From the NCBI RefSeq assembly GCF_017353455.1, contig NZ_JAFMPZ010000477.1:1-37052 (forward strand): a DNA stretch of 37,052 nt, written 5' to 3'. Numbering within the stretch: the stretch's first letter is position 1; each line of letters opens with the position of its first letter. The stretch comes from Streptomyces laculatispora. GTDB taxonomy: Bacteria > Actinomycetota > Actinomycetes > Streptomycetales > Streptomycetaceae. The notes beneath the pieces were generated by a model that did no database searches, was not told where the DNA came from, and worked only from the letters and a program-made list of their open reading frames with translations. Both the position numbers and the translations under genes were made by a program. Shown piece after piece: positions 2,046 to 7,712 of this stretch.

Positions 2046-3857
2046 TCAGCCCTGCTCGTCCATCCCCGCGAGCACGAGCGGCAGCCGGGGCGTCCCCTCC
2101 GCGACCACGCGGACGGGGACGCCCCAGTCCTGTTGGTGGACGTGGCAGGCCGGGTACTCGTTCGCGGGGTCGTCGTCGCAGGACGCGGCCATCGCCGAGA
2201 CGTGCAGGACGCCCTCGGTCACCCCGTCCGCGAGGACCAGATCGCGGAACAGATCGGTGCCCGCGCCGTCGCCCCCGGCCAGCAGCTCCGGCGGGGTCGA
2301 GGAGACCAGCAGCCGGGTCGAGGGCCCGTACCGGGTGTCCAGCTTCTGGCCTGCGGGCGCCTGGAAGACGATGTCGAGCCGGAGCGCGCCCGGGGCGATC
2401 TCGGTGGCGACGCGCTGGGTGCGGTGCGCGGAATCGGCGACGCGTACCGCCTCCTCGGGCAGCCGCAGCCTGGTCAGCCGGTGCCTGGCGGACTCGACGA
2501 CCACGAGATCGCCGTCCACCAGCACGGCGTCGCTGGGCTCGCGCAGATCCGTGGCGAGCGTGGTGACCTCACCGCTCGCCGGGTCGTAGCGGCGCAGGGC
2601 GTGGTTGTAGGTGTCGCAGACGGCGACGGACCCGTCGGGCAGCGCGGTGACACCCAGCGGGTGCTGGAGCAGAGCCTGATCAGCGGCCCCGTCGCGGTGG
2701 CCGAAGTCGAAGAGTCCGGTGCCGACCGCGGTGTGGACGGCTCCCTCCAGATCGACGTAGCGCAGCGCGGACGTCTCCGAGTCGGCGACCCAGAGCCGCT
2801 CCGCGGTGGCGGCGAGCCCGGACGGCTGGGCGAACCACGCCTCGTCGCCCGGACCGTCGACCAGGCCCTCGTTCGTGGTGCCGGCCGCGACCCGCACGGT
2901 GCCGTTCCCGGGGTCGTACGTCCACAGCTGGTGCACGCCCGCCATGGCGATCCAGAGCCTGCCGTCGAACCAGGCGACGTCCCACGGGGAGGAGAGGTCG
3001 ATCTCGCGGCCCGCGCCACTGGTAGGCGCCCCCTGCCACCACTGGCGGCCGCTGCCGGCGAGGGTGGTCGTCGTACCGGTCGTGAGGTCGAGCGCGCGGA
3101 TCGCGTGGTTCACCGTGTCGGCGACGGCGATCCGCCCGTCGGGCAGCACCGCCAGCCCCTGCGGCTCGCTGAACCGGACCTCCTCGGGCCCGCCGTCGGT
3201 GAACCCGCGGTCGCCGGTCCCGAAGTGGCGGCGGACGCTCTCGCCGTCCGCGTCCAGCTCGACCAGCCGGTGGCGGGTGGTGTCGGAGACCAGGAACCCG
3301 CCGTCGGCCAGCAGCAGCGCCTTCCCGGGGAACCGCAGATGCGTCGCCACCGGCTCGGGCGCCACGTACGGCCCGTCGCCGCGTCGCAGGGTGCCCTTCG
3401 CGGCGTGCTCGGCCTCCAGCTCCTCGACGAGCTTCTCGATGGCGTGGGCGTGGCCCTCGCCCGCGTGCTGGGCGACGACATATCCCTCGGGGTCGACGAC
3501 GACGAGCGTCGGCCAGGCGCGTACGGCGTACTGCTTCCAGGTCGCGAGCTCGGGGTCGTCCAGCACCGGGTGGTGCACCTCGTACCGCTCGACGGCGTCG
3601 GCCACGGCCTGGTGCTCCGCCTCATGGACGAACTTCGGCGAGTGCACGCCGATGATCACCACGGTGTCGCGGTGCTTCTCCTCCAGCTCGCGCAGCTCGT
3701 CGAGGACATGCAGGCAGTTCACACAGCAGAACGTCCAGAAATCCAAGATCACAATGCGTCCTCGCAGGTCAGCGAGGGCGTACTGCTGGTCGCCTGTATT
3801 GAGCCAGCCGCCCTTGCCGATCAGTTCGGGGGCCCTGACGCGCGCACGTGTTGCCAT
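2046..3857 (-). CDS. Thioredoxin-fold protein with NHL repeats
   Basis: A 603-residue protein with an N-terminal TlpA/thioredoxin-like domain (about 1-160) and an NHL-repeat propeller behind it (about 190-500). The redox site is WTFCCVNC, with the CxxC pair at Cys45 and Cys48. Repeats such as LPDGRIAVADTVNHAIRALDL and LPDGSVAVCDTYNHALRRYDP are classic NHL units, and a C-terminal domain follows. No signal peptide is seen, so it is probably cytosolic. The start MATRARVRAPEL at 3857 is chosen because upstream in-frame codons would run into the divergent gene at 3922. By family knowledge (NHLRC2-like) it may act in redox or scaffold roles; the substrate is unknown. It shares a 64-bp divergent promoter region with the next gene. 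Confidence 0.88.
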   Translation of the reverse strand: MATRARVRAPELIGKGGWLNTGDQQYALADLRGRIVILDFWTFCCVNCLHVLDELRELEEKHRDTVVIIGVHSPKFVHEAEHQAVADAVERYEVHHPVLDDPELATWKQYAVRAWPTLVVVDPEGYVVAQHAGEGHAHAIEKLVEELEAEHAAKGTLRRGDGPYVAPEPVATHLRFPGKALLLADGGFLVSDTTRHRLVELDADGESVRRHFGTGDRGFTDGGPEEVRFSEPQGLAVLPDGRIAVADTVNHAIRALDLTTGTTTTLAGSGRQWWQGAPTSGAGREIDLSSPWDVAWFDGRLWIAMAGVHQLWTYDPGNGTVRVAAGTTNEGLVDGPGDEAWFAQPSGLAATAERLWVADSETSALRYVDLEGAVHTAVGTGLFDFGHRDGAADQALLQHPLGVTALPDGSVAVCDTYNHALRRYDPASGEVTTLATDLREPSDAVLVDGDLVVVESARHRLTRLRLPEEAVRVADSAHRTQRVATEIAPGALRLDIVFQAPAGQKLDTRYGPSTRLLVSSTPPELLAGGDGAGTDLFRDLVLADGVTEGVLHVSAMAASCDDDPANEYPACHVHQQDWGVPVRVVAEGTPRLPLVLAGMDEQG

Positions 3858-3893
3858 GTGAACAGTCAACATCACCGTGGCGTCCACGCATTC

Positions 3894-3917
3894 CACAGGT
3901 ACCTCGGGGAACCTGTG
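3894..3917. promoter_or_regulatory. Inverted repeat in divergent promoter region
   Basis: CACAGGT at 3894-3900 is mirrored exactly by ACCTGTG at 3911-3917, ten bases apart. Inner bases also pair (CC/GG), so arms of ten match at nine positions. It lies 4 bases before the ATG at 3922 and 37 bases before the divergent start at 3857, a fitting place for an operator or a 5'-UTR hairpin. The protein that would bind it is unknown. Confidence 0.4.
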
Positions 3918-3921
3918 AGCC

Positions 3922-4413
3922 ATGAGACTTCTCGTGCGTGAGCGACTGTTCGGCATCGGCGACGACTACTGGATCGAGGACGCGGACGGCCGCAAGGTCT
4001 TCCTCGTCGACGGCAAGGCGATGCGGGTGCGTGACACCTTCGAGCTGAAGGACGCACAGGGCCGGATCGTCGCCGAGATCCGGCAGAAACTGATCAGCCT
4101 GCGCGACACGATGCTCATCGAGCGCGACGGCGAGCAGCTGGCCAAGGTCAAGCGGAAGCGGCTGTCGCTGCTGCGCAACCACTACCGGGTCACCCTGGTG
4201 GACGGCACCGAGCTCGACGTCAGCGGCAAGATCCTGGACCGCGAGTTCGCGGTGGAGTACGACGGGGAGCTGCTGGCCCAGATCTCGCGCCGCTGGCTGA
4301 CCGTCCGGGACACGTACGGGATCGATGTCGTGCGGGAGGACGCCGACACGGCGCTGCTGATCGCGGTGGCGGTGTGCGTCATCGTGCTCGCGGAGAAGGA
4401 GCACGAGGACTGA
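3922..4413 (+). CDS. LURP-one-related / tubby-like (DUF567) protein
   Basis: A 163-residue protein made of repeating beta-strand units (FLVDGKAMRVRDTFELKDAQGRIVAEIRQKLISLRDTMLIERDGEQLAKVKRKRL), the pattern of the LURP-one-related family, which shares the tubby C-terminal fold. It ends in a short hydrophobic segment (ALLIAVAVCVIVLA, about residues 144-157) before EKEHED. In tubby and scramblase relatives this buried C-terminal helix fills the barrel, so it need not be a membrane anchor. The biochemical role is unknown. It is transcribed away from the thioredoxin-NHL gene, and the 32-bp parS palindrome begins six bases after its stop. Confidence 0.85.
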   Translation: MRLLVRERLFGIGDDYWIEDADGRKVFLVDGKAMRVRDTFELKDAQGRIVAEIRQKLISLRDTMLIERDGEQLAKVKRKRLSLLRNHYRVTLVDGTELDVSGKILDREFAVEYDGELLAQISRRWLTVRDTYGIDVVREDADTALLIAVAVCVIVLAEKEHED

Positions 4414-4419
4414 GCGGCG

Positions 4420-4451
4420 GCGGTGCCTGTTTCACGTGAAACAGGCACCGC
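4420..4451. other. parS: parS partition site within a 32-bp perfect palindrome
   Basis: The core GTTTCACGTGAAAC at 4429-4442 is exactly the 14-bp parS consensus reported for Streptomyces, and TGTTTCACGTGAAACA (4428-4443) is the general 16-bp bacterial parS. Perfect symmetry runs further out, from 4420 to 4451, with outer arms GCGGTGCC/GGCACCGC. ParB binds such sites, which cluster around oriC, to organise the origin region for segregation. It sits between two convergent genes, so the outer stem may also act as a bidirectional terminator. I saw no second copy in the window. Confidence 0.88.
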
Positions 4452-4493
4452 GGAAGAACCCACGGTTGTACGCGACTGTCCGGTGGTACGTGA

Positions 4494-4507
4494 CTGTCCA
4501 AGGACAG
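4494..4507. repeat. Short inverted and direct repeats between parS and the amidase gene
   Basis: CTGTCC (4494-4499) and GGACAG (4502-4507) form a small inverted repeat. Just before it, TACGCGACTGTCC and TACGTGACTGTCC form a near-direct repeat, at 4469-4481 and 4487-4499. They lie downstream of the amidase stop, so they may be part of its terminator. No other function is evident. Confidence 0.3.
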
Positions 4508-4516
4508 CCGTCGGCA

Positions 4517-5317
4517 CTATCCGAGGACGGCAGGCGGCGCGAGCCCCAGCCGGCGGTCCTTGAGGGCCGGGAACTGCTCCCGGGTGGCGGCGACCCGGGA
4601 AGGATCGAACTCCACGCTCAGCACCTCCTCGCCCGCGCCCGCCTGCGCGAGCACCTCGCCCCAGGGGTCGACGACGATGCTGTGCCCGGCCTGCGGGACT
4701 CCGGCGTGGGTACCGGCGCATCCGACGGCCAGCACATACGCCTGGTTCTCCACCGCCCGCGCCTGGGCGAGCAGCGTCCAGTGGGCACGGCGGCGCTCGG
4801 GCCAGCCCGCCGCGACAACCAGGGTCTCGGCGCCCGCGTCGACCAGCCCGCGGAACATCTCCGGGAAGCGCAGGTCGTAGCAGGTGGCGAGCCCGATCGT
4901 GGTCTGCGGCAGGGCGACGGTGACCAGCTCGTCACCGGCGCCCATCATGACCGCCTCGCCCTTGTCGAAGCCGAAGCGGTGGATCTTGCGGTACGCGGCG
5001 GCCCGTTCGCCCTCGGGGGTGAAGACGAGCGTGGTGTTGTAGAGGGTGCCGTCGTCGGCCCGCTCGACGAAGGAGCCGGCGTACAGCCAGACCCCGGCAT
5101 CGGCGGCGGCCTTGGCCATCACCTCGTGCGTGGGACCGAGCAGCGGTTCGGCCTCGGCCTCGAACTCCTCGTAGGCGAAGGCTCCGACCGGCCAGAGCTC
5201 GGGCAGGACCACCAGATCCGCGCCCCGTTGGGTCGCGATCAGCGAAGCCACGCGCCCCCTACGGGCCTTGACGGATTCGTCCGGGTCTACTGCGATCTGG
5301 ATGAGAGAGGCGCGCAC
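4517..5317 (-). CDS. Nitrilase-superfamily carbon-nitrogen hydrolase
   Basis: A 266-residue protein with the complete nitrilase catalytic triad: Glu40 (VVLPELW), Lys111 (YRKIHRFGFD) and nucleophile Cys146 (LATCYDLRFPEMFR). Its length and these motifs match the YafV/Nit2-like omega-amidase branch, which hydrolyses small amide carbons such as 2-oxo-acid amides or deaminated metabolites. It is soluble and without a signal peptide. The start is GTG at 5317, and the first residues MRASLIQIAVD fit the family's N-terminal strand. It converges on the LURP-one gene across parS and diverges from the gene at 5496. The exact substrate cannot be read from sequence. Confidence 0.9.
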   Translation of the reverse strand: MRASLIQIAVDPDESVKARRGRVASLIATQRGADLVVLPELWPVGAFAYEEFEAEAEPLLGPTHEVMAKAAADAGVWLYAGSFVERADDGTLYNTTLVFTPEGERAAAYRKIHRFGFDKGEAVMMGAGDELVTVALPQTTIGLATCYDLRFPEMFRGLVDAGAETLVVAAGWPERRRAHWTLLAQARAVENQAYVLAVGCAGTHAGVPQAGHSIVVDPWGEVLAQAGAGEEVLSVEFDPSRVAATREQFPALKDRRLGLAPPAVLG

Positions 5318-5495
5318 ACTACCACCGTCCTGGCATATGAGCCGTCAACACGGGCCTACGATCGTCACACGAAAGCACTGCCGGGGTGCCTGCTCGCAGC
5401 GTAACTTGGACCGACCGAACCTCACTGCAGCTCGCAGCCCGCCGTCCGCGCCCAGTTCTCCAGCCCATGCACCGCAGAACCGCACGAGGGGTCCC

Positions 5496-6320
5496 GTGAC
5501 CGTCCATCCCAGCCTCCAGACCTACGCCGACGCCTGGACCCACTCCATCGAGTCGATAGCCGAGCTGGTGAGCCCGCTCACCGAGGGGGAGTGGAACGGC
5601 CGTACTCCATGTCCCAACTGGTCGGTGCGCGACATCGTGTCGCACATCATCGGCATGGAATGCGAGCAGCTCGGCGATCCGCGCCCCATCCACACACTGC
5701 CGCGCGATCTCTACCACGTGCAGAACGACTTCGCCCGCTACATGGAGATGCAGGTCGATGTGCGGCGCCACCACACCGCACCGGAGATGACCTCCGAGCT
5801 GGAGTACACCATCATCCGCCGGGCCCGTCAGCTGCGCAACGAGACGCGTGCCCCGGAGACCATGACGCGCGCGCCGCTCGGCGCCGAGCAGACCCTCGAA
5901 CTGGCGCTGCGGATGCGCGCCTTCGACGTATGGGTGCACGAGCAGGACCTGCGTACGACGCTGGGGAAGCCCGGCAATCTGGACTCCCCCGGTGCCACGA
6001 TCGTCCGGGACACGCTGCTGGCCGCACTGCCGAAGGTGGTCGCCAAGGACGCGGGCGCACCGCCCAACTCGGCGGTCGTGCTGGATGTCCACGGGCCGGT
6101 GGAGTTCCTGCGCACCGTCCGGGTCGACGCGGAGGGCCGCGGTTCGGTGGACGGCGCACCGTCGCTGGGCCCCGCGGTGACGCTGGCGATGGACTGGGAG
6201 ACGTACGTGCGGCTGGCCTGCGGCCGGGTGCGGGCGAGCTCGGTCGCGGACGACATCAAGGCCGAGGGCGACCAGGACCTGGCCGCCGCCATCCTGCAGA
6301 ACTTCGCCGTCACCCCGTAG
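5496..6320 (+). CDS. Maleylpyruvate isomerase family mycothiol-dependent enzyme
   Basis: A 274-residue member of the DinB/MDMPI superfamily. The N-terminal four-helix-bundle domain carries LTEGEWNGRTPCPNWSVRDIVSHIIGME, the usual opening of these proteins, with His of SHIIG the likely first metal ligand. RMRAFDVWVHEQDLRTTLG supplies the later conserved His. The C-terminal part resembles an SCP2-like domain. Family members use mycothiol, the actinobacterial thiol, as cofactor or substrate, but most are uncharacterised. The GTG start at 5496 is preferred over frames beginning farther upstream because GAGGGG lies at 5486-5491 and family homology begins just after it (VTVHPSLQTYADAW). Confidence 0.87.
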   Translation: MTVHPSLQTYADAWTHSIESIAELVSPLTEGEWNGRTPCPNWSVRDIVSHIIGMECEQLGDPRPIHTLPRDLYHVQNDFARYMEMQVDVRRHHTAPEMTSELEYTIIRRARQLRNETRAPETMTRAPLGAEQTLELALRMRAFDVWVHEQDLRTTLGKPGNLDSPGATIVRDTLLAALPKVVAKDAGAPPNSAVVLDVHGPVEFLRTVRVDAEGRGSVDGAPSLGPAVTLAMDWETYVRLACGRVRASSVADDIKAEGDQDLAAAILQNFAVTP

Positions 6321-6355
6321 TCACGGCAACCGGCGCCCCTTCACGGCAACCGGCG
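6321..6355. repeat. 15-bp direct repeat after a stop codon
   Basis: TCACGGCAACCGGCG occurs at 6321-6335 and again at 6341-6355, a 20-bp period beginning immediately after the upstream gene's stop. It lies in the short convergent space before the terminator hairpin. Probably a local duplication. Confidence 0.6.
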
Positions 6356-6356
6356 A

Positions 6357-6381
6357 CGCCCGCCCCGCAGGGGGACGGGCG
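6357..6381. terminator. Hairpin between convergent genes
   Basis: CGCCCG (6357-6362) plus CCCC pairs with GGGG plus CGGGCG (6376-6381), with one bulged A at 6375. It sits midway between the stop at 6320 (+) and the MFS gene's end at 6402 (-), so it can serve both. There is no T-run, as is common in Streptomyces. Confidence 0.55.
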
Positions 6382-6401
6382 CGCCGCCGCGTCCACGTCC
6401 C

Positions 6402-7712
6402 CTACGCGGGTACGTGTACGGCCTCCACCCGGCTGATCACATGGTGCTCGCGCTCCCGGTGCGCGGCCCTGGCCCGCAGCCGCAGGATCTGCACGACCCC
6501 GAGCGCCTCCAGGACGAAGACCGAGGCGAACGCGATGCGGTAGTTGTCGCCGGTCGCGTCCAGCAGCACGCCGACGGCGAACAGTGTGGTCATCGACGCG
6601 ACGAAGCCGCCCATGTTGACGATCCCCGAAGCGGTGCCCTGGCGCTCCGGCGGGTTGGCCGGGCGGGCGAAGTCGAAGCCGATCATCGACGCGGGCCCAC
6701 AGGCGCCGAGCACCACGCACAGCGTGACCAGCAGCCACATCGGCGCATGGTCCCCGGGGTACAGGATGGCCGACGCCCACAGCAGCGCCGTCATCGCGAC
6801 CGTGCCCAGCGCGAGCGGGACACGGGCCGCGTGGTGGCGGGCGATGATCTGCCCGTAGACGAGGCCGACGGCCATGTTGGAGAGCACCACCAGGGTGAGC
6901 AGCTCCCCCGCGGTCCCCCGGCTCAGCCCCTGCGCCTCGACCAGGAACGGCATCCCCCACAGCAGCAGGAACACCATGGCCGGGAACTGCGTGGTGAAGT
7001 GCACCCACATCCCGAGCCGGGTGCCCGGTTCCCGCCAGGCGGCGGCGATCTGCTTGCGCACGTACGTCCCGCCGGCGTGCTCGGCGGGCGGCGGCGCGTG
7101 CCCCTCGGGGTGGTCCTTCAGGAAGAGCAGCAGCAGGACCAGCACCACGACCCCGGCCAGCGAGCTGCCGACGAAGGTGGTGGTCCAGCCCAGGCCGTGC
7201 AGGGAGCGGGCGATCACCAGCGTCGAGACGAGGTTGCCCGCCATCCCGAAGAGGGCGGCGACCTGCCCGATCATCGGGCCGCGCCTGGCCGGGAACCAGC
7301 GCGCCCCCAGCCGCAGCACGCTGATGAACGTCATCGCGTCGCCGCAGCCCAGCAGGGCGCGGGAGGCCAGCGCGGCACCGTACGAGGGGGAGAGCGCGAA
7401 GCCGAGCTGCCCGAGGGTGAACAGGACGGCGCCGATGGTGAGCACCTTCTTGGTGCCCAGCCGGTCCACCATCAGGCCGACGGGTATCTGCATGCCCGCG
7501 TAGACCAGCAGCTGAAGGATGGAGAAGGTGGAGAGCGCCGAGGCGCTGACGTCGAACCGGTCGGCGGCGTCGAGCCCGGCGACGCCCAGGCTGGTGCGGA
7601 AGATGATGGCGACGAAGTAGACGGCGACCCCGACGCCCCAGACCATGGCGGCCCGCCGGCCGCCGGGCGGATCGCCGGGCAGGGACAGCGTGGGGGCGGC
7701 GGCGGAACTCAC
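6402..7712 (-). CDS. MFS transporter
   Basis: A 436-residue major facilitator protein with about twelve hydrophobic segments. The family signature between segments 2 and 3 is visible as GLMVDRLGTKKVL, and RALLGCGDAMTFISVLRLGARWFPARRGPMIG marks segments 4-5. A charged central loop (KDHPEGHAPPPAEHAGGTYVRKQ) splits the two halves. It acts in the cytoplasmic membrane; the substrate is unknown. Its GTG start overlaps the stop of the upstream GntR gene as GTGA (7709-7712), so the pair is translationally coupled, and the regulator probably controls this exporter or importer. Confidence 0.92.
   Translation of the reverse strand: MSSAAAPTLSLPGDPPGGRRAAMVWGVGVAVYFVAIIFRTSLGVAGLDAADRFDVSASALSTFSILQLLVYAGMQIPVGLMVDRLGTKKVLTIGAVLFTLGQLGFALSPSYGAALASRALLGCGDAMTFISVLRLGARWFPARRGPMIGQVAALFGMAGNLVSTLVIARSLHGLGWTTTFVGSSLAGVVVLVLLLLFLKDHPEGHAPPPAEHAGGTYVRKQIAAAWREPGTRLGMWVHFTTQFPAMVFLLLWGMPFLVEAQGLSRGTAGELLTLVVLSNMAVGLVYGQIIARHHAARVPLALGTVAMTALLWASAILYPGDHAPMWLLVTLCVVLGACGPASMIGFDFARPANPPERQGTASGIVNMGGFVASMTTLFAVGVLLDATGDNYRIAFASVFVLEALGVVQILRLRARAAHREREHHVISRVEAVHVPA

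Follow-up and report, generated by a model that had tools for sequence, protein, structure and literature searches.

The 32-bp perfect palindrome described here lies in a stretch of 37,052 nucleotides of the Streptomyces laculatispora draft genome, which we call the window, and it probably serves at two levels. As DNA, it would be a genuine chromosomal parS and a candidate ParB loading site; as RNA, it would fold at the 3' ends of two convergent genes into a bidirectional terminator hairpin of the U-tract-less (I-shaped) kind, with parS at its apex, a reading in which we include the trimming of 3' ends at the same hairpin. We favor the terminator hairpin on the grounds of the covariation of the arms at orthologous sites, the persistence of off-centre stems, the gene context of extended parS sites, the like ranking of stems devoid of parS, and the folding energies. 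Counting against it are the missing U tract, the optional nature of the hairpin, the failures of a mismatch-tolerant measure, the weak contrast between locus families, the long stems in tandem and divergent gaps with parS, and the scarcity of strong hairpins in orthologous gaps devoid of parS. Loci are numbered with L and genomes with G throughout.

The parS palindrome and its surroundings

The palindrome (Table 1) reads GCGGTGCCTGTTTCACGTGAAACAGGCACCGC and is identical to its own reverse complement; the runner-up in the window reaches only 14 bp. Its core is the sole parS match in the window, even with up to two mismatches allowed. By composition (69.7% G+C), the nine extra pairs around the core have a probability of about 1.4e-5, and 9e-5 palindromes of 32 bp are expected anywhere in the window. 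For exact parS copies, the expectation is 2e-5 in the window and 0.004 in the whole draft genome of 7.3 Mb. In this draft, which is 84% complete, parS occurs five times without a mismatch and once with one mismatch. One of the five, on contig C357, is the center of another palindrome with 10 extra pairs, and the three remaining copies have no extra pairs at all.

Table 1. Features of the window around the palindrome
Feature	Position	Strand	Location or evidence
LURP-one-related (LOR, PF04525) gene	3922..4413	+	stop 6 nt before the palindrome
32-bp perfect palindrome, 9-bp arms on each side of parS	4420..4451	.	symmetry, folds, energies
parS core (exact 14-bp ParB site consensus, self-complementary)	4429..4442	.	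exact match and orthologue conservation
Carbon-nitrogen hydrolase (PF00795) gene, convergent	4517..5317	-	stop 65 nt from the palindrome

The site thus shows the 14-bp consensus core expected of a chromosomal parS and belongs to a set of several copies near oriC, the oriC part being taken from relatives. A search for DnaA in the draft genome itself gave no match, and the distance was therefore read from relatives only. dnaA was placed in six of them, and four of the six have the orthologous parS, at 87, 94, 87, and 82 kb from dnaA (L046, L018, L011, and L021, respectively), with both elements on one long contig of 6.6 to 7.9 Mb. In S. venezuelae, the passages on parS in PMC4852455 place 16 sites less than about 200 kb from oriC and nearly all ParB ChIP peaks on parS sites; the orthologous parS at 82-94 kb falls inside that zone. 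The first-pass annotation had proposed an exact Streptomyces parS consensus within a 32-bp perfect palindrome between convergent genes, near oriC. The core indeed has no mismatch and its exact copies far exceed the expectation for the genome, the extent of the palindrome and the convergence of its neighbors proved correct, and the nearness to oriC holds by way of the four relatives.

Elsewhere in the window, the first gene (1-1920) has no boundary before the contig edge, which has probably truncated it; it is similar to AfsR-type regulators in their NB-ARC/TPR part. A profile search with PF11760 found no match, a result without bearing on any claim made here.

The palindrome as a predicted RNA hairpin

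Folded as RNA, each strand of the palindrome forms a stem of 14 bp closed by a loop of 4 nt. The folds of 65 and 125 nt have z scores of -4.2 and -3.8, and none of 200 shuffled sequences was as good. The 40-nt stretches up to the base of the stem reach -29.4 and -29.5 kcal/mol at 30°C on the two strands, and the 8 nt behind the stem contain 0 and 1 T, respectively. A scan of positions 3000-6500 for the terminator consensus found no canonical terminator, since the scan demands a T run. In fact, the site has one half of a canonical intrinsic terminator, a stable GC-rich hairpin soon after a stop codon, and lacks the U tract on both strands; we therefore rejected the canonical hairpin-plus-U-tract type.

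A closer match is found among transcript ends mapped by Term-seq in S. clavuligerus. As described in the sections of PMC8269248 on 3' ends, highly structured ends were defined by a limit of -23 kcal/mol, 353 of 535 such ends had no U tract, bidirectional ends had longer stems and shorter loops, and the structured ends lacking U were linked to I-shaped terminators or to the ends of Rho-terminated transcripts. More generally, U tracts appear to be few and hairpins unusually long and stable in Streptomyces, according to the corresponding part of PMC12207403. On both strands, the 40-nt energy of the window site at 30°C passes the limit of -23 kcal/mol and fewer than three U occur in the 8 nt, as in the bidirectional class named HS-U-lack Bi-TEP. 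Judged from its letters, the site is predicted to belong to this class of 3' end and to work like a U-lack bidirectional terminator. The earlier suggestion that the palindrome may act as a terminator gains support from arm covariation, gene context, and energetics, for a type other than the canonical one with a U tract.

The lack of a U tract also suits a version of this explanation in which the hairpin stabilizes or marks the 3' ends of the mRNAs, as a stop for trimming or as an RNase III site, while Rho terminates transcription further on. Stem-bearing, U-poor 3' ends of Streptomyces may be the ends of Rho-terminated transcripts in the account of PMC8269248, and similar doubts about Streptomyces 3' ends are voiced in passages of PMC12207403. 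However, a position 6 nt after a stop codon and between convergent genes suits termination equally well, and we regard the trimming version as possible but rather doubtful.

Conservation and covariation at orthologous sites

A protein search with LOR confirmed 473 loci, the best 80 of which were taken; these nearest loci are labelled Streptomyces, apart from one '[Kitasatospora] papulosa'. Of the 44 nearest loci (L005-L048), 42 have an exact parS behind the LOR gene; the 36 more distant ones (L049-L084) have none there, and it thus appears that individual parS positions are gained and lost from one Streptomyces lineage to another. Together with the window, the 42 relatives provide 43 orthologous sites. 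At least seven of the ten arm positions are complementary in 17 of the 43, and at least eight in 12. The hairpin is thus optional at the orthologous parS, 26 of the 43 sites being without a well-paired centered stem.

The sequence of the arms is not conserved among the orthologues, yet their complementarity is kept: the 11 sites with at least eight arm pairs, the window aside, have eight different left arms. Over the ten arm positions of the 43 sites we counted 245 complementary pairs, against 164.6 +/- 9.3 when the right arms were re-dealt among the sites (0 of 2000 trials as high). In the 40 distinct rows, 63.3% of the cells are paired (49.6% after shuffling; 0/500), 83 cells are changed on both sides (49.5 after shuffling; 0/500), and the covariation of the 10-pair helix is 0.424 compared with 0.224 +/- 0.025 (0/500), falling to 0.194 or less when the helix is slid by one to three columns. 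The number of pairs with any change on both sides (10, against 9.8 in shuffles) is saturated and therefore uninformative. The arms accordingly change in pairs beyond chance, as expected of a conserved RNA hairpin; the shuffles ignore relatedness, and the slid controls are far lower. Between the sister species L005 and L012, two pairs are different, each with both of its sides changed.

On the tree of LOR proteins, the 12 rows of the window's clade, which is starred, comprise nine with a centered hairpin, two with an off-centre one (L016 and L017), and one with neither (L009). The clade from L043 to L027 has 17 rows bearing parS, of which only 2 show a centered hairpin. The state of the hairpin changes at least nine times on the tree, so that it seems to be gained and lost easily. 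The long, unreliable branches of L039, L047, L068, and L053 were kept in the tree, and our statements on clades concern starred branches elsewhere.

Some sites may preserve a trace of how the arms arose. In L048, compared with L028, L031, L035, and L042, one arm is like that of the relatives and the other has been rewritten as its complement, and the same pattern is seen in L018 compared with L009; possibly, this is the mark left when the parS palindrome seeds copying by template switching. Such cases, together with the position of L048 within a clade mostly devoid of the hairpin, are what one would expect if the site were a plain parS and the long palindrome a mutational by-product: a 14-bp palindrome would prompt the replication fork to switch template, and the copying of one arm from its partner would yield perfect palindromes in the absence of selection. 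Three sites bear on this possibility. In L016, L017, and L029, the symmetry of parS is broken by an extra stretch beside the core, and still the RNA stems have 17, 19, and 19 pairs, with z scores of -8.3, -7.8, and -8.0. The stems of L016 and L029 contain a bulge or mismatch, that of L017 includes two G-U pairs, and in all three parS is partly in the loop. The persistence of off-centre stems, G-U pairs included, speaks against a mere by-product.

The same three sites are relevant to the proposal that the arms serve ParB, with the extended symmetry strengthening or orienting its loading or permitting a cruciform. The extended sites are indeed symmetric about parS, which is partly a matter of definition given that only core-centered pairs were counted; however, the off-centre stems lose that symmetry and keep the hairpin, and the arm sequence is free to vary as long as complementarity is retained. 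The retention of off-centre stems thus suggests that pairing in the RNA, rather than symmetry of the DNA for ParB, is under selection.

Gaps at orthologous positions without parS were also folded (26 of 38 loci, the 12 gaps shorter than 20 bp being left out), and strong hairpins proved infrequent, with a z score above 3 in 3 of the 26, one of them due to a run of N (L078). In L040, from a group that otherwise has parS, the same gap contains a 14-bp stem, and the longer stretch folds with other stems.

Extended parS sites across the genus

We surveyed 226 parS sites from 16 Streptomyces genomes, with the gene context assigned by a home-made codon-usage gene finder. The first set consists of 151 sites from 11 genomes. 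Its lists of exact cores are complete for G061-G064 and G000; in G009, G013, G018, G022, G036, and G039, every exact core was counted within stretches round sites listed by a pattern that omits some flanks, the listed sites being 8 of 11 in G009. The second set consists of 75 sites from five further genomes, four complete and G010 with 17 of 28. Extension was scored either as at least five perfect extra pairs or by a tolerant measure, at least seven of ten pairs at positions 2-11 with mismatches allowed (Table 2). The tolerant measure is the one named before the second set was analysed, when the perfect one had already been computed; the latter was applied to nearness to gene ends only from the analysis of the second set on.

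Table 2. Extended parS sites, locus families, and long stems by gene context
Measure	Convergent	Tandem	Divergent	Intragenic
Perfect extension, both sets	39/83	10/74	2/15	1/54
Perfect extension, first set	28/57	7/46	2/11	1/37
Perfect extension, second set	11/26	3/28	0/4	0/17
Tolerant measure, first set	26/57	13/46	1/11	1/37
Tolerant measure, second set	6/26	4/28	0/4	0/17
Locus families with the hairpin in most members, first set	5/13	3/15	0/4	0/12
Gaps without parS, stem of at least 9 bp	8/25	26/204	3/44	
Gaps with parS, stem of at least 9 bp	43/53	17/33	3/7	

Perfect extension is found at 52 of the 226 sites, 34 of which have at least eight extra pairs. Convergent sites exceed the other intergenic ones in both sets (p 0.0003 in the first, 0.005 in the second). 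By the tolerant measure, which re-dealt arms of the first set reach in 3.3 to 4.9% of cases, the contrast has a p of 0.03 in the first set and was not replicated in the second (6/26 vs 4/32, p 0.32). A clear separation also appears for intergenic sites not more than 100 bp behind a gene end, 46 of 115 of which are perfectly extended, against 5 of 57 others (p 1.4e-5; 33/80 vs 4/34 in the first set, 13/35 vs 1/23 in the second). The tolerant measure in the first set did not separate the sites near gene ends from the rest (32/80 vs 8/34, p 0.13). We also rejected, on the same measure and set, a preference of tandem hairpins for the position directly after a stop codon, as the distance from the upstream stop made no difference (p 0.87), which is explained in part by a site in the leader of parA, described below. 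The clear contrasts therefore depend on the perfect-extension measure. The sites are related to one another; grouped into locus families, some of which merge neighboring sites, they show a weak contrast by context (Table 2), and one convergent family has the hairpin in none of its eight sites.

We also compared the gaps of 40-400 bp at the same loci for a perfect stem of at least 9 bp with a loop of 3-8 nt (Table 2). The parS core alone contributes five pairs of such a stem, and in 32 of the 53 convergent gaps with parS the best stem spans the core. The stems in gaps without parS rank alike by context; it seems, then, that long stems mark gene ends, convergent ones most of all, and that parS shares them. 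As for the energies, 36 of the 52 extended sites are below -23 kcal/mol on both strands and none of 173 non-extended ones is, in a fixed frame that biases the latter to weak values (one non-extended site, with N or at an edge, was dropped). Three or more T follow the stem on at least one strand in 23 of the 52, and on both strands in two.

These results also weigh on the two proposals set out above. Arm-onto-arm copying without selection would be expected in every non-coding context, yet perfect extensions cluster next to the 3' ends of genes, few were seen where the neighboring genes diverge (a small sample), and ordinary stems without parS follow the same ranking; the by-product explanation is in our opinion unlikely. 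For arms that serve ParB, the gene context should be irrelevant, and 174 of the 226 parS sites have fewer than five extra pairs, which together make this role for the arms highly improbable.

Recurrence at other loci

The first-pass annotation had called the dual role of parS and terminator stem unusual. That judgment does not stand, as extended palindromes recur at several loci in the genus, and the site, at first taken for an isolated peculiarity, belongs to a combination that recurs and evolves in Streptomyces. The survey suggests, at the level of sequence, that parS within a U-tract-less bidirectional terminator hairpin may be a recurrent design of these bacteria.

In one family, two adjacent parS sites lie between convergent genes, next to a gene with the PolyA_pol and HD domains of CCA-adding enzymes (Pfam domains checked on L153 only), the product of which we take to be the CCA-adding enzyme. 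At least five extra pairs are present in 17 of its 20 sites, and at both sites in eight of ten genomes. The paired sites have hairpins of their own with different arms, as seen in L153 and L163 (both at 2001/2045), L143, L136, L174, L182, L184, and L201. In a tandem family, parS follows a phosphoribosyltransferase gene, presumably pyrE, and precedes that of a class-II fructose-bisphosphate aldolase, presumably fbaA (domains checked on L169, and on L131 too for the former). Here the hairpin is present at six of six sites by the tolerant measure, and four of the six are 26 bp after the upstream stop. These hairpinned sites (L213, L186, L131, L160, L169, and L148) are outlying, at about 200-310 kb from dnaA in the four genomes with both placed.

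A parS with an imperfect palindrome also occurs in the gap between gidB (rsmG) and parA (L164:7053, L154:7040, L135:2299, L200:2353, and orthologues; domains checked on L164), 10 bp before the predicted parA start in several genomes. This site is not at a gene 3' end, and its hairpin may consequently have another role, for example in the control of the parA leader. Exact parS copies only 4-5 bp apart, tight duplications of the centromere site, were observed at four places in G007 and G049 (L219:2001/2019, L219:8594/8613, L238:2001/2020, and L239:2001/2019).

Beyond the genus, we examined a sample of 100 genomes of the phylum, 49 of which had no match to the parS pattern. Among the matches listed, 59 parS sites from 31 genomes are outside Streptomyces, and six of these have at least five extra pairs and one at least eight. 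In this sample, the fusion of parS with a hairpin is mainly, not only, a Streptomyces feature.

Proposed mechanism and implications

In the terminator-hairpin model, RNA polymerase coming from either gene would read through the palindrome, and the nascent RNA would fold into the GC-rich stem, the parS core forming the upper stem and the loop and the flanking arms the lower stem. The hairpin, in all likelihood by terminating transcription, would then define the transcript's 3' end, and would do likewise on the other strand, while at the DNA level the 14-bp core would act as the ParB loading site. The gain, we infer, would be that a palindrome mandatory for ParB is re-used as the tip of a hairpin, and that read-through past parS is limited from both sides.

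A more elaborate possibility is that parS acted as a seed in Streptomyces: copied on its own template, the palindrome would have grown time and again into terminator hairpins where genes end, and in the resulting composite elements ParB occupancy and termination would affect each other. ParB might aid termination as a roadblock, the hairpin might protect ParB at its loading site from being swept away by RNA polymerase, and the pair might perhaps act as a switch during sporulation, when ParB complexes assemble. We hold this scenario to be improbable.

Streptomycetes carry a mean of 22.8 parS per chromosome in 20 closed genomes, a count far above that of most bacteria, as stated in the parS passages of PMC8743542. 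If the terminator-hairpin model is true for a share of these sites, their number and placement would be set in part by transcription, deletion of a parS would also alter where transcripts end, and published Term-seq and ParB ChIP-seq data could be used to test, at defined sites, how RNA polymerase and ParB conflict.

Comparison with known systems

Within the titles and abstract openings of the open-licence literature, a scope outside which the original S. coelicolor parS papers fall, we did not find parS described within terminator hairpins. The parS passages of PMC7022226, PMC4852455, and PMC8743542 are silent on such hairpins, and the string 'terminat' is absent from their main texts.

The window site resembles the chromosomal parS of the Streptomyces ParABS system in its exact GTTTCACGTGAAAC core, its several copies, and its proximity to oriC. 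The known element is described as a site of 14-16 bp, whereas that of the window is the center of a 32-bp palindrome with arms that vary freely between species. With the HS-U-lack, I-shaped Bi-TEPs of S. clavuligerus, as characterized in the sections of PMC8269248 on bidirectional ends, it shares a GC-rich stem with a short loop, convergent genes, fewer than three U after the stem, and, on each strand, a 40-nt folding energy at 30°C under the limit of -23 kcal/mol. Unlike those Bi-TEPs, which are mapped 3' ends of the two strands that overlap within less than 60 bp, the hairpin of the window is predicted from its sequence, and the tip of its stem is an intact centromere site. An effect of parS on the expression of neighboring genes has a precedent in parS3 and parS4 of Pseudomonas aeruginosa, which, in the relevant passages of PMC7022226, lie upstream of genes and repress neighboring promoters through ParB; the parS of the window, in contrast, lies at gene 3' ends and would act, if at all, through RNA.
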